Origin: Sanghuangporus weigelae
Taxonomy: Eukaryota > Basidiomycota > Agaricomycetes > Hymenochaetales > Hymenochaetaceae
Length of the DNA stretch: 64,000 nt
Direction of reading: 5' to 3'
Assembly: GCA_033182465.1 (NCBI GenBank)
Contig: CP137318.1
Location: forward strand, 744,001-808,000
In this document: in pieces, positions 1,148 to 35,290 of the stretch
How positions within the stretch are numbered: position 1 is the first letter of the stretch
Layout of the letters: the number at the start of each line of letters is the position of its first letter
The notes under the pieces: model-generated
What the model saw: only the letters and a program-made list of their open reading frames with translations
What the model was told of the DNA's origin: nothing
The model's database searches: none
Position numbers and translations under genes: made by a program

Positions 1148-3637
1148 TTTTCTCAGTTCCAGGAAGGGATCAAGTAATGGACTCGCATCGTTTTTCCTTC
1201 CGAGTATTCCCTTCAAATTATCTCCCCGGTACCTTCAAATACCAGTCAAAAGAATTCCTCTTCTCCCTTTCTTTGTAGAGTGTAGATACGGTAGAGTATT
1301 ACATTAGTAAGTATACCAAGCTAAGGGGACGTCTTGTTACTTTGTTGTTTCGTGGCTAGCAGTTACGGTGAATCACAGAGTACTACATAGTCAGCAATGT
1401 TAGAGTTTTATCTCCCTTGCAAGAAATCAGCCTGAAAATTGGCGCTTCAAGTCTGCGCTTATTCTCTTTGAGTCTTCTCCGAGTTTCATGTAATATTAGC
1501 CTTACATTAGCGCTCGAACTCGGCGAAGATGCTTTCGTTTGTATTGTCGATATTGACCGATAACTCTTCTTTCGGTCTTCCAAAGCTCCGTTTGTCAGTG
1601 GTCAACGCTAGACAATATAAATGATGTGTTTGGCTGATGGACTTATGTCTGTGGGAACGTGGAACGGATGTACATAAATGTAATGGAGATGAGAACGCTG
1701 TTCGATCACTTTTTTCTTCCCTTTCTCTTTCGTACGGTGGATAGACTTTTCTTTCGCTGCACTGCACGAAGGAACTTGAAGATGCCATTTATTTTGATCG
1801 CATGCACTGCCCTCCGAGTCGATAATACAAGGAGTTGCATTACAGGGCGCTTACAAGAAATTTTACGAAGGGCCTATCCGAGTCGGAGATTTGAGAAGGT
1901 GAGACGAGAAGTCAATAGCAAAGCGCCTAGCAGGAAAAGAATCCTGTTTGTACTCAGAAGTCTAGAATTACATAGACTCGCATGCACAGCGTTGAATTTG
2001 CCTGGATGAAGTGCCCCCCTTTTTTTTCAAACTAAACGCCAATGTTCTGAGTTTTGCATACAATTTGAAAAGATATGATCCACCCATACAAGCCGAAGCA
2101 CGCGTAGGGCATAGTCATTGACAAAGAAGAAGTAAAGAAATGATTGATTGCCGTTCCTTTGTGGGCCTTCTGCGTACCCGAAGAGCTATATATCGACGCA
2201 CTAGTGCTTGTATCGTTTAAGATCCTTTCGTTCGTGCCACTCCACGCTCTCCCGGATTTGAAAAGGAATCATGGGCCCGAACGGAGGCGACGATGACGTG
2301 GCGGAACGGCATAGAGAGCAGAGAAGAGAAGAAAAGCCATACTCGTAATGAATCGAAAGTCAAGTCAAAGTCAAACCAAGCAGTGGCAAACACCGTGACG
2401 GTGATTCCAAGTCTGTGATCATATGTGATTTCGCACCCGAGGAACATCGAGGGACGAGGATGATAGACTCGGAAGGCCAACGCCGCTGTCGTCAACGACA
2501 ATCTACGGAGGATCTTAAATCTGAGTAAGGTACGATGAGATGAGAGATTGAAATTGGAATATCAATACACGGCCGAGGCGGCTGTAGGTGGCGATGACAG
2601 TGGACTGGCATTTAGTTAGGAAGTTTAGTGCGATTCATACGACATTGACAACATGGGTGCCCCGCCAGAGATTATGGCCTTACCGCAGGCCACAACCCAG
2701 AAAGTTCCACCGGCCCTGCACGACAAAAGAAGAGAAAAGCGAGAGTGAACAATAATCATCTAGTATCTTCCATCTAGGGTACCTGCACTAGTACTGTTCG
2801 AGAGATACACATGCCAACCAGTATCTACAAAGACGATGACGACTAATTCTGCTTCGTCGCGCTTTTCATGATACTGAACAAATGTAGTACCAATTGCTCG
2901 AGCACGAACATATACTCATATCTCAGCGCGACAGCCAGAAAACAGACCGTCAAGGAGTCGAAACTTCGTCTACCGATTCAAGTTCAGAGCGACACGAGAC
3001 AATATCATCATACGCTGAGACTTTTCTCAGAAGTGGCAGCCGGCCGAAGGAAAGCTGCTCGCGCTTGAGACGGCCATAGATCAGATAGCCACTTCTTTCC
3101 TTTCACCTCTAGGTCAGGATAAACCATTTTTGGCTCGAGTACGGCCATTTCTGCTTATCATCAGAGGAAGCTGGCAGCAAGAAGATGGATAGAACATTCC
3201 GGGAGATCGACGAGCCACAGTGACCTCCAAAAAACAAAGGTAGCACGTTCCGGACGGAGAACAGAAAAAGACAAGGACTCGTTCGGCACTTTCACGAAGA
3301 AAGACCATAAAGATATCACTCCTCGTCCTCTCGCCGACTTGCATTGAGTGGCAAGCATATGCCACTTCGCGGGGAAGAAGTGAACCAGCGAACACAAAAG
3401 TCTGCTTGCTTGATCTGTGCGACCAATGGAAAAGAGCAAAATACCGCGGATGTACAGAAACTGAGGACGCTTGAGTGAAAGAATACTGTACACACCTCGG
3501 GCTGCAGATGTGGTGAGTGGCAGAGATTGGTTCCGAGGGAGAGACGCGTATTAAGTGGCCCGCCTAAACGCGCAGGATCACGGCGCGTTTCACGTTTCGT
3601 TTCTCCGGCAGCCGGCAGAGTCCGCGGCAGGTACTTT

Positions 3638-32096: not shown

Positions 32097-32304
32097 TACA
32101 GTCATTAACCGGTCCTTTGAACACCTATTACAGATCCACTTTTGTAGCTCACCACGCAGCAATTTTCTCAAAACTGAGTGCATACTCCAATTGTCTACCA
32201 TGAGATACACCTGCTAATTTTTTTCCCGGTGATAACATAGACAGGAAAAATTGATATGGCCAATAGAAAATTATAGGTGACTGTCACGTAATACGGCTCC
32301 TTTG

Positions 32305-32623
32305 CACACCGGGCAAAGAGTTATTATAATCTAAAAGAAATTTATAATTAGCTGACAAACAAGATTTGAAATTAAATACTGCATTTAATTACGTGAAATA
32401 TTTCATGTGATAGAACTTGAAATAACAATAAGGATTTAGATTCGGATTAGGAAAACAAAGAGATTTCAAATAATGTCGTGTGAGGAACACATAAAGAAAC
32501 TTGAAGTCTTAGAAAAGCAAAAATGGTTAAGTTTAGTTATTGCCGAAATTTTATGTCTTTGATAGGAAGAAATTTAAAATTCTTTTTATTATTCTGACAA
32601 AGAAAAAATAAGTTTGACTCTCA
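32305..32623 (+). repeat. Left 319-bp inverted arm of the inner element
   Basis: AT-rich sequence starting CACACCGGGCAAAG and ending just before the GC-rich array. Reverse complement of 34534-34852 without indels. Confidence 0.9.
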
Positions 32624-32744
32624 GTGGGCGCTCAGCGGGCGATCGGTGGGCGATCGGCGGGCGATCCGAGGGCGCTCAGCGGGCACTCAGAGGGCACTCA
32701 GCGGGCGATCAGAGGGTGCTCAGAGGGTGCTCAGCGGGCAATCC
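32624..32744 (+). repeat. Left subterminal array, eleven 11-bp units
   Basis: Eleven head-to-tail units with consensus G-N-GGGC-R-M-TC-N (for example GTGGGCGCTCA, GCGGGCGATCG, GAGGGCACTCA). The 11-bp period is close to one DNA helical turn, as expected for phased protein-binding sites. Confidence 0.9.
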
Positions 32745-32841
32745 TGATATTTCACCATACATACAATGCTTAACCAGTCCATGCATCCTCTATATAGCTC
32801 TTCAATAAAATAAGCATGCAGATGCATTTCTTCAGTATAGA

Positions 32842-34432
32842 TGGATCTTTGAAAGGCACTTAATGAACGGAGAGTAAGTCTACCATTCAGTAGCGCCTGA
32901 TCTAGTCTCATTTATCTATCAACGCAGTTATGTCCTCTTCAACAGACAGCCATAATTGCACGCACAAATGTCTATGATGTGTCACAGGGTCCGACTGATG
33001 CTCTATTCAAGTGCGTGCTCGACCGATATGTTCATGTCTGAACTCTGATTAATTTTATGCAGCCTTTCGTCTCAATTATTCCGTTACTCCTCCGTACAAT
33101 GCCGACTTCGATGGTGATGAAATGAACATGCAGTACGTCGTATCACTGCCACCTTGTGCTGTCGTTTCTCATCTTCGTGTAGTGTCCCCCAGAGCGAGGA
33201 GACTCGGGCCGAGCTCAGTCAAATAGAATGGGTCCCCAGGCAGATCATTTCGCCCCAAACGAACAAGCCCGTTATTGGTATCGTGCAGGATACTCTTTGC
33301 GGTATCCGCAAGTTCACCTTGCGAGGTTGTTCCCTTGATTGGCAACAAGTACAGAATATACTGCTTTGGGTACCGAATTGGGACGGCACGATCCCAACAC
33401 CAACCATTTTGAAACCCAATTTTTTATGGACGGGCAAGCAAATTCTTAGCATGACAATCCCGCGTGGGATCAACATTTCCCGGTCGCCCGAGAACAAGTC
33501 ATGGAGTCCTGTCTTCGATGATGGCATACTGATCGAGAATGGCGAGATCATCTTTGGTATTGTTGAGAAAGAAGACCGTTGGCGCATCCCAGGGCGGCCT
33601 GATGCACGTTGTTTTCCGAGAGAAAGGTCCTGAAGCTACACGATCGCTCTTTACGGGTCTGCAGAATATCGTCAATTATTGGCTGTTCCACAATGGATTC
33701 AGTATCGGTATCGGCGATACGGTTGCAGACAGAAAAACGATGGCGTACATCACGGAGCAGATTAAGATGCGGAAACAGAATGTTGCCAAAGTCATAGAAG
33801 ATGCGGCCATGGATCGCCTGAAAGCAGCTCCGGGTATGACTATCCACGAATCCTTCGAGAGTCAAGTCGAACGGGAGCTCAATTTGGCTCGTGATCCCTC
33901 TGGTCAATATGCTCAGGAGAACCACAAAGAGGACAATAATGCCAAGCAGATGGTAGTCGCTGGTTCCCAGGGTTCCTTCATCAACATCTCCCAGATGTCT
34001 GTTTGCGTCGGTCAGCAATCCGTGGAAGGGAAGTGTATCCCGTTCGGCTTCAGACATCGAACACTACCGCACTTCATGAAGGATGATTTCAGTCCAGAGG
34101 CGCCGGGTTTCATTGAGAATTCCTACTTGCGTGGATTAACACCGCAAGAGTTCTTCTTTCACGCCATGGCGGGTCGCGAGGGATTAATTGACACGGCTGT
34201 CAAGACGGCGGAGATTGGCTACATCCAACGGCGGCTTGTCAAGACTCTAGAAGACCATGGTACATTATGACGGGACTGTTCGGAACTCGTTGGGTAATCT
34301 CATACAGTTCGTCTATGGCAAAGGTGGCATGGATGAGACTTTCATTGAGAGACAGAGCATTAAAACGTTCGGTATCAATGATCGCGAATTCGAGCATCGC
34401 TACCGTTACAGATCCGAAGGTGGCTTCCTTCT
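32842..34432 (+). pseudogene. RPB1: Captured, decayed fragment of RNA polymerase II largest subunit (RPB1), active centre to bridge helix
   Basis: Six reading blocks match RPB1 in order: FERHLMNGDYVLFNRQP, QMSMMCHRVRLMLYST, the catalytic loop [19 protein letters not shown], the pore/funnel part ([20 protein letters not shown]), [20 protein letters not shown], and the bridge helix [21 protein letters not shown], then RNSLGNLIQFVYG and INDREFEHRYR. At least three introns remain (for example 32872-32930 region, about 33011-33060 and 33134-33180), so the copy came from DNA, not mRNA. It is broken: an in-frame TAA after FNRQP, a frameshift near 33570 ([11 protein letters not shown] continues in another frame) and another near 34260 after VKTLED. 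Several residues that are nearly invariant are changed (MGHRV to MCHRV, NLSVT to NYSVT). The clamp, trigger loop and CTD are absent. The functional RPB1 must be elsewhere in the genome. Confidence 0.9.
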
Positions 34433-34436
34433 TATT

Positions 34437-34533
34437 GCCCGCCGATCGCCCTCTGAGTGCCCGCTGAGCATCCTCTGAGCGCCCGCCGATCGCCCTCGGA
34501 TCGCCCGCCGATCGCCCACCGCTGAGCGCCCAC
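34437..34533 (-). repeat. Right subterminal array, about nine 11-bp units, inverted
   Basis: Same unit type as the left array in reverse orientation, but with a different order and number of units, and one irregular 3-bp spacer next to the arm. Confidence 0.85.
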
Positions 34534-34852
34534 TGAGAGTCAAACTTATTTTTTCTTTGTCAGAATAATAAAAAGAATTTTAAATTTCTTCCTATCAAAG
34601 ACATAAAATTTCGGCAATAACTAAACTTAACCATTTTTGCTTTTCTAAGACTTCAAGTTTCTTTATGTGTTCCTCACACGACATTATTTGAAATCTCTTT
34701 GTTTTCCTAATCCGAATCTAAATCCTTATTGTTATTTCAAGTTCTATCACATGAAATATTTCACGTAATTAAATGCAGTATTTAATTTCAAATCTTGTTT
34801 GTCAGCTAATTATAAATTTCTTTTAGATTATAATAACTCTTTGCCCGGTGTG
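34534..34852 (-). repeat. Right 319-bp inverted arm of the inner element
   Basis: Reverse complement of the left arm; ends CTTTGCCCGGTGTG at 34852. Confidence 0.9.
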
Positions 34853-35290
34853 AATATCGACTAATTTGCCGACTTGGCATAACAACGTCGATCACATTAT
34901 GTAAAATAAACAGCTTGTGTATCTGTCACATTTTTTGCTTGTTTAGCTTGCATTAATTAACTGAAAGCATATTCCTCCATGAAAATATAAGATAAGACAC
35001 TTATAATAGAGTGATATTAGCTAATAAACTCAGAATCCACATTGGTTGACAGAAAAATGCACAGGACCAATTTGATCAGAGTGAGGTTTACTGGTTTCAC
35101 ATAGATTGACCAGTGTCTAATATTTCCTGACCCAACAACTTGCCCGATTTACTTAAAAATTTGGATATCAATTCAGATATACACTTTGCATCTGCAACAT
35201 TTTTCTTGTGGTGAGGGATGAAGAATTGAGTGAGAAAACGTAAGGTGTTTAAAGGAATGGTACTGTTTAAAGGACCGGTTAATGACTGTA

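Follow-up and report, generated by a model that had tools for sequence, protein, structure and literature searches.

The element at positions 32305-34852 of the window (the 64,000-nucleotide stretch of Sanghuangporus weigelae DNA analysed here) is very probably a non-autonomous, Pack-CACTA-like member of the CACTA/EnSpm transposons. Its ancestor would have captured a 1.64-kb stretch of host DNA from the gene for the largest subunit of RNA polymerase II (RPB1) and then been copied by a transposase supplied in trans. The 2,548 bp are confirmed to be a genuine transposon. An initial annotation of this DNA had described long inverted arms around a 1.6-kb RPB1 piece that contains DYVLFNRQP and the catalytic loop. 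This is borne out: the piece measures 1.64 kb, and the arms (32305-32638 and 34519-34852) measure 334 nt each and are 100% complementary as an inverted pair. The components of the element and its insertion target are:

32305..32619, forward strand: left terminal inverted repeat, AT-rich, starting CACACCGGGCAAAGAG; equal to the right arm, with 43 genome matches (best 40 of 61 candidates scored)
32620..32740, forward strand: left subterminal array, 11 units of 11 bp, CTCAGCGGGCG-like (self-comparison, shuffles)
32741..32792, forward strand: filler of about 52 bp between the left array and the RPB1 piece, with no RPB1 match above shuffles
32793..34431, forward strand: captured RPB1 piece, corresponding to native coordinates (natg) 1501-3146, with three introns and a 1-bp insertion (alignment, Pfam)
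34432..34537 (start approximate), reverse strand: right subterminal array of 11-bp units (self-comparison, shuffles)
34538..34852, reverse strand: right terminal inverted repeat, ending ..CTCTTTGCCCGGTGTG, identical to the left arm
32097..35290, no strand assigned: host repeat that forms the insertion target, with inverted ends TACAGTCATTAACCGGTCC, 646 bp when the element is subtracted (alignment of the L034 and L032 flanks)

The subterminal arrays are GC-rich and lie inside the AT-rich arms, and the first 19 bp of the left array are also part of the identical inverted arm. With a period of 11, self-match amounts to 81% in the left and 69% in the right array, values which none of 500 shuffles reached. 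The cargo borders had been placed directly at the arrays. This holds on the right, where the array starts at the end of the RPB1 sequence, but on the left the filler intervenes (51 bp of the left filler of family 1, the family of the window copy, gave no RPB1 match above shuffles).

The window copy (L031) lacks a 3-bp target duplication, unlike most of its sisters; compared with the flanks of other copies, the host repeat runs on at its junction without clear loss or duplication. L034, L032, and the window copy each lie inside a copy of one host repeat (TACAGTCATTAACCGGTCC-like ends), hinting that family 1 may prefer to insert into other transposons. A private 9-bp deletion is found in both arms of the window copy at mirror positions, which suggests that the arms exchange sequence, or are homogenised, within a copy. 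L033, L035, and L038 carry one to three private changes each, present in both arms.

The native RPB1 gene is encoded on the minus strand of the same contig (C1, at about 3991-3997 kb). Its open frame, read from within the N-terminal part, comprises 1216 residues and ends in CTD heptads. Because RPB1 with its CTD lies elsewhere on the contig, the piece in the element is not a split native gene, as it might have been had the genome held no other RPB1. The cargo (32793-34431) aligns to natg 1501-3146 with 1520 of 1650 columns identical (92%) and keeps three native introns at the same places as in the native gene. Since the introns are kept, the capture was from DNA, as the initial annotation had concluded. 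Its overall claim, that a DNA transposon took up a piece of RPB1 from genomic DNA, is thus supported by the arms, the introns, and the native donor. In the native protein, the captured stretch corresponds approximately to residues 413-902 of the budding-yeast chain. It extends from just upstream of DYVLFNRQP through the catalytic 10-residue motif and ends past what we take to be the bridge helix.

When the forward frames were scanned against Pfam, the two main forward ORFs showed only RPB1 domains 3, 4, and 5. A 1-bp insertion at about 33567 disrupts the reading frame. It is present in all eight loci that fit the test pattern (13 element loci were compared, with L030, L039, L041, L042, and L043 fitting neither way). 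Private changes fall at all three codon positions (positions 1/2/3: 39/31/30 in L042, 22/17/17 in L039, 15/14/8 in L038), so that the cargo is not under coding selection. The family-1 cargo is frameshifted, has no coding role, and decays neutrally.

When the genome was searched with the arm, 43 matches were obtained (best 40 of 61 candidates scored), and 20 stretches around such matches were examined. Sister elements both with and without RPB1 cargo were found. Ten two-armed copies carry RPB1 (L031 to L039, plus L042/L043), and in all ten the cargo borders are at native coordinates 1501 and 3146/3148. Because these borders are shared, we attribute family 1 to a single capture followed by amplification. 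RPB1 also occurs at five loci with broken or single arms (L030, L040, L041, L047, L049), while no RPB1 match was found in the two-armed relatives L044, L045, and L046 (arms 80% or 69% alike). The capture reported for the window copy is therefore real but not private to it: it is a trait of a family of at least ten two-armed copies, and RPB1 recurs as cargo in related families. Cargo divergence is 0.2-0.4% among L032, L033, L034, and L035, and such near-identical copies suggest recent movement.

Exact 3-bp target duplications are seen in nine of the 13 two-ended copies examined (tgc, tat, ata, tat, ttt, tga, act, ttc, aat). There are two near-cases (4 bp at L036; 3 bp at L039 if the last base has changed), and L031 and L042/43 show none. 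As a separate observation, nested near-perfect palindromes of about 1,085 bp, TA-flanked and 92-97% self-complementary, are found in L037 (2411-3495), L039 (2269-3353), and L047 (420-1505).

The ends of family 1 are 5'-CAC..GTG-3' inverted repeats. In the genome, the terminal 13-mer CACASCRGRCAAA is found 212 times (107 on one strand and 105 on the other), compared to 5 times (1 and 4) for the reversed control. By eye, its first 100 places are mostly inverted pairs. Short elements of about 130 and about 380 bp carry the 13-mer too, as does a giant element (C1:195805-215722, with L074 and L073 as ends). A common element of about 130 bp has the terminus CACACCGGGCAAA (e.g., C1:1193000-1193129) and is nested in two family-1 copies, at 1114-1241 in L034 and at about 2690-2818 in L049. 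A second giant is found on C6 (about 2027.3-2045.6 kb), with arms at 2027267 and 2045609, about 18.3 kb apart; the two giants thus measure 18-20 kb. In a comparison covering the arms, those of the C6 giant are 99-100% alike to those of the C1 giant over 202 bp.

The tnp2 transposase family (PF02992, Transposase_21) has three matches in the genome, one in each giant and one at C5:367674, and no RPB1 match lies near the latter. The tnp2 match is partial (46.7 bits, profile positions 27-154 of 213). Both giants carry RPB1 natg 1086-2036 near one end. They have the terminus CACA[GC]CGGGCAAA in common with family 1 but lack its long arm, and we found no element in the genome that combines the family-1 arm with a transposase. 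The link between the window element and the giants accordingly rests on the short terminus and the style of the arrays. The 11-bp periodicity is weaker in the giant: L073 has a best period of 23, followed by 11 (0 of 500 shuffles), and the value for L074 (54 of 500) is not significant.

Subterminal arrays of short repeats are typical of CACTA/EnSpm elements; they are clear in family 1, L075, and L076. We file the element under CACTA/EnSpm because of the CAC..GTG ends, the 3-bp duplications in most sisters, the arrays, and the tnp2 matches in the giants. A Pack-MULE, for which a target duplication of 9 bp is expected, does not agree with the 3 bp found. Nor does a hAT element, for which 8 bp would be expected (PMC12730594). 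CAC..GTG ends with 3-bp target duplications are described for fungal EnSpm elements in the same report (PMC12730594).

Other candidates for an autonomous partner were rejected. Plavaka and KDZ transposases are encoded in the genome, but their matches lie only outside the C1 and C6 giants. The 9.6-kb L042/L043 looked like an autonomous element but belongs to family 1 and contains a nested insertion, the ORFs of which look Ty3/gypsy-like. In L045 (4.9 kb) and L046 (4.3 kb), the arms of which are 69% alike, all five ORFs of at least 100 aa are without a Pfam match over the cut-off, and RPB1 is absent. A 17.7-kb insertion on C2 (L047/L048) has different ends (TACAGCTAATTGCAAAATT) and is taken as a separate element. 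The two ORFs at the left end of the C1 giant match no Pfam family over the cut-off, and a search of a plasmid collection returned nothing.

Some further features of these rejected elements were observed. The C2 insertion (C2:3225397-3243057) has inverted arms of 2.1 kb (L047 2396-4488 and L048 5469-7560) which are 99.5% alike, and its end is similar to the ends of the 1,085-bp palindromes. Nearly the same long ORF (MPNQDYFERLLRQNSGG.., 291 and 339 aa) is found in L046 (2428-3303) and L047 (5869-6888), which are transposons with different ends. It is possibly a second shared cargo; the copy in L046 has no Pfam match over the cut-off.

We propose that the ancestor of family 1 took up the 1.64-kb piece of host RPB1 through aberrant transposition, in which neighbouring insertions would have been re-mobilised as one. 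Such re-mobilisation has been proposed for plant Pack-CACTA/Pack-TYPE elements (PMC8903248, PMC13317346). Gap repair with template switching may have led to the same result. Amplification would then have been driven by a transposase acting in trans, most plausibly the putative tnp2 of the related giants with their CACA[GC]CGGGCAAA terminus, which we infer to act on family-1 ends.

RPB1 pieces are not confined to family 1. A query of 3,046 bases of native RPB1, from the N-terminal part to near the right border of family 1, gave 45 matches, of which 44 are non-native. Merging matches that lie within 5 kb of each other leaves 35 places, and merging within 10 kb leaves 33; such genome searches give lower bounds. 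The pieces fall into three or four classes of arms and borders, the giants included, and some matches (e.g., C10:1797852, C2:2767535) are outside all of them:

Family 1: natg 1501-3148
Giants and C6:174310: natg about 1086-2036
Class 3, two copies on C12: natg 347-1587; two others end near 1587
Class 4, a group ending near natg 1981: in C2:1993937 the match resumes at about 3008 and extends to at least about 3101, perhaps to 3160

In one copy from each of four classes, an array with a period of 11 or 22/23 bp is found at the RPB1 end or within about 0.3 kb of it. The best array period exceeds all 500 shuffles in family 1, L073, L075, and L076. Array and arm sequences differ between the four classes, and the sequence past the RPB1 end shows no RPB1 match above shuffles in L073 and L075. 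We infer that the C12 and C2 classes are CACTA elements too.

No comparable scatter was seen in the controls, which are few and of different search types. PF00562, one domain of the second subunits, has seven matches; the three loci concerned are consistent with native genes, and no loose pieces were seen. Host DNA from the window (19.9 kb) gave two matches of 65-66%, which look like paralogues. Outside the native genes, all matches of PF04998 (15 of 15) and PF00623 (42 of 42) coincide with RPB1 DNA matches, so that no origin from RPA1 or RPC1 needs to be invoked.

The number of captures was assessed by a codon-position test alone, because the FastTree topology is unrooted and cannot separate one capture from two. 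A shared neutral past should leave shared changes at first and second codon positions. The giant was compared over 513 sites. Its piece in L073 shares 16 states with family 1, all of them third-position or intronic and none at a first or second position. At 13 first- or second-position sites where family 1 differs from the native gene, L073 has the native state; at one more it differs from both. Over the same stretch, the older family-1 copy L042 shares nine of 14 first- and second-position sites with family 1 (Fisher p 0.0006). L030 shares 12 of 29 such sites over the whole cargo (p 0.008); the short stretch by itself (1 of 4) has too few sites to help. This pattern favours the interpretation that family 1 and the giants captured RPB1 separately, or that they split very soon after one capture. 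RPB1 was thus probably taken more than once by this transposon group.

It is also conceivable, though we consider it rather less likely, that a long RPB1 stretch was acquired once, by one CACTA ancestor, and was passed on to all the descendant families, with different internal deletions and with arms that diverged. The array style common to the classes and the terminus common to family 1 and the giants are in line with such a history, as is the right end of C2:1993937, which lies so close to the family-1 border at 3148 that class 4 and family 1 may derive from one capture. In the codon-position test, however, nothing points to a neutral history that the giant and family 1 had in common. That the cargo is the RPB1 of another species, brought in by horizontal transfer of the transposon, is very unlikely. 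The family-1 majority differs from the native gene at 20/20/53 sites (codon positions 1/2/3) plus 19 intronic ones, a third-position excess as seen between species, but a native gene that went on evolving under constraint after the capture would be expected to show the same excess. Moreover, changes on the branch of the native gene would account for the 16 states that family 1 and the giant have in common. A false inversion around a misplaced RPB1 copy, an assembly artefact to which the 100% identical arms and the missing target duplication of the window copy might point, has a negligible probability. The initial annotation had tied this alternative to arms that are found only here, which is not so in view of the genome matches; sisters with their own flanks are found on many contigs, the cargo differs from native RPB1 at 115 aligned sites, and the host repeat carries on past the element, as judged from the flanks of other copies.

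The preferred reading, capture followed by amplification in trans, leaves the role of the cargo to be considered. Most likely it is a passive passenger. Alternatively, it could serve as hostage or camouflage: any small RNAs or methylation that silence the element would strike an essential gene as well, which would lead the host to tolerate the element. The 44 non-native RPB1 matches at about 35 places, transposase-bearing giants among them, are compatible with this, as is the lack of such scatter in the PF00562, RPA1/RPC1-type, and host-DNA controls, although these few controls differ in search type. The long inverted arms could yield hairpin RNA, and the idea itself has been stated for plants (PMC13317346, section 11). 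A CpG footprint argues against full protection, however. A CpG C>T excess is found in the cargo of seven of the ten copies tested (L032-L035 not tested apart), for example in L039 (36 of 195 CpG versus 25 of 599 other sites, p 2e-9), L042 (p 1e-16), and L030 (p 9e-14), and is absent from L031, L036, and L038. Because of this excess, many copies were probably methylated. In addition, the captured part of native RPB1 shows no CpG loss (observed/expected 1.21, versus 1.13 outside). We thus regard it as improbable that the host tolerates the elements on this account. It seems just as doubtful that several CACTA families, including transposase-bearing ones, took RPB1 independently and escape sequence-guided silencing by means of essential-gene sequence. 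If true, this would explain why RPB1 recurs and why it is present even in transposase-bearing elements.

Several known systems resemble the one described here. Plant Pack-CACTA/Pack-TYPE elements (PMC8903248) are likewise non-autonomous, have CACTA-type ends, and carry a gene fragment between inverted repeats that is multiplied by transposition. The present elements differ in that the host is a fungus, the arms are 0.33 kb long, and the 11-bp arrays are GC-rich; furthermore, several families and also transposase-bearing elements carry pieces of one and the same donor gene. In fungi, hAT elements transduplicate histone H3 in Pyrenophora tritici-repentis and Pseudocercospora fijiensis (PMC3538342, PMC6710886). 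There, too, a fungal DNA transposon captures and amplifies a housekeeping gene, and in P. tritici-repentis long transposase-bearing and short forms coexist (PMC3538342, PMC6710886). The elements described here are of the CACTA type, carry an internal piece of RPB1 instead of the H3 coding sequence, and represent several capture classes of one gene. Fungal EnSpm/Plavaka elements with captured TET/JBP genes (PMC12730594) are also CMC-type elements with captured genes, with CAC..GTG ends and 3-bp duplications reported in the case of EnSpm. Their cargo encodes an enzyme thought to act against silencing, whereas here it is a broken, non-coding RPB1 piece. The epigenetic conflict over captured genes in maize (PMC13317346, section 11) provides a framework for an essential donor that shields a transposon, in a different kingdom.

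In a literature search, which drew mostly on papers outside subscription and was aimed in part at RPB1 or RNA polymerase II, we found no report of RPB1 capture by a transposon. The initial annotation likewise knew of no described fungal case with RPB1, but the capture of a housekeeping gene in fungi had already been published (PMC3538342, PMC6710886). Gene-fragment capture by DNA transposons is familiar from plants, and in fungi histone H3 is a documented case; what is added here is RPB1 as a donor that has probably been hit more than once.

Few genes of the cell are as constrained as this donor, pieces of which are present at about 35 places in a genome of 34 Mb. Because the near-identical copies suggest recent movement, the system may be open to direct experiment. 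Whether the recurrent capture of one essential gene reflects chance and hitchhiking, or has been selected because silencing endangers the donor, can now be tested.
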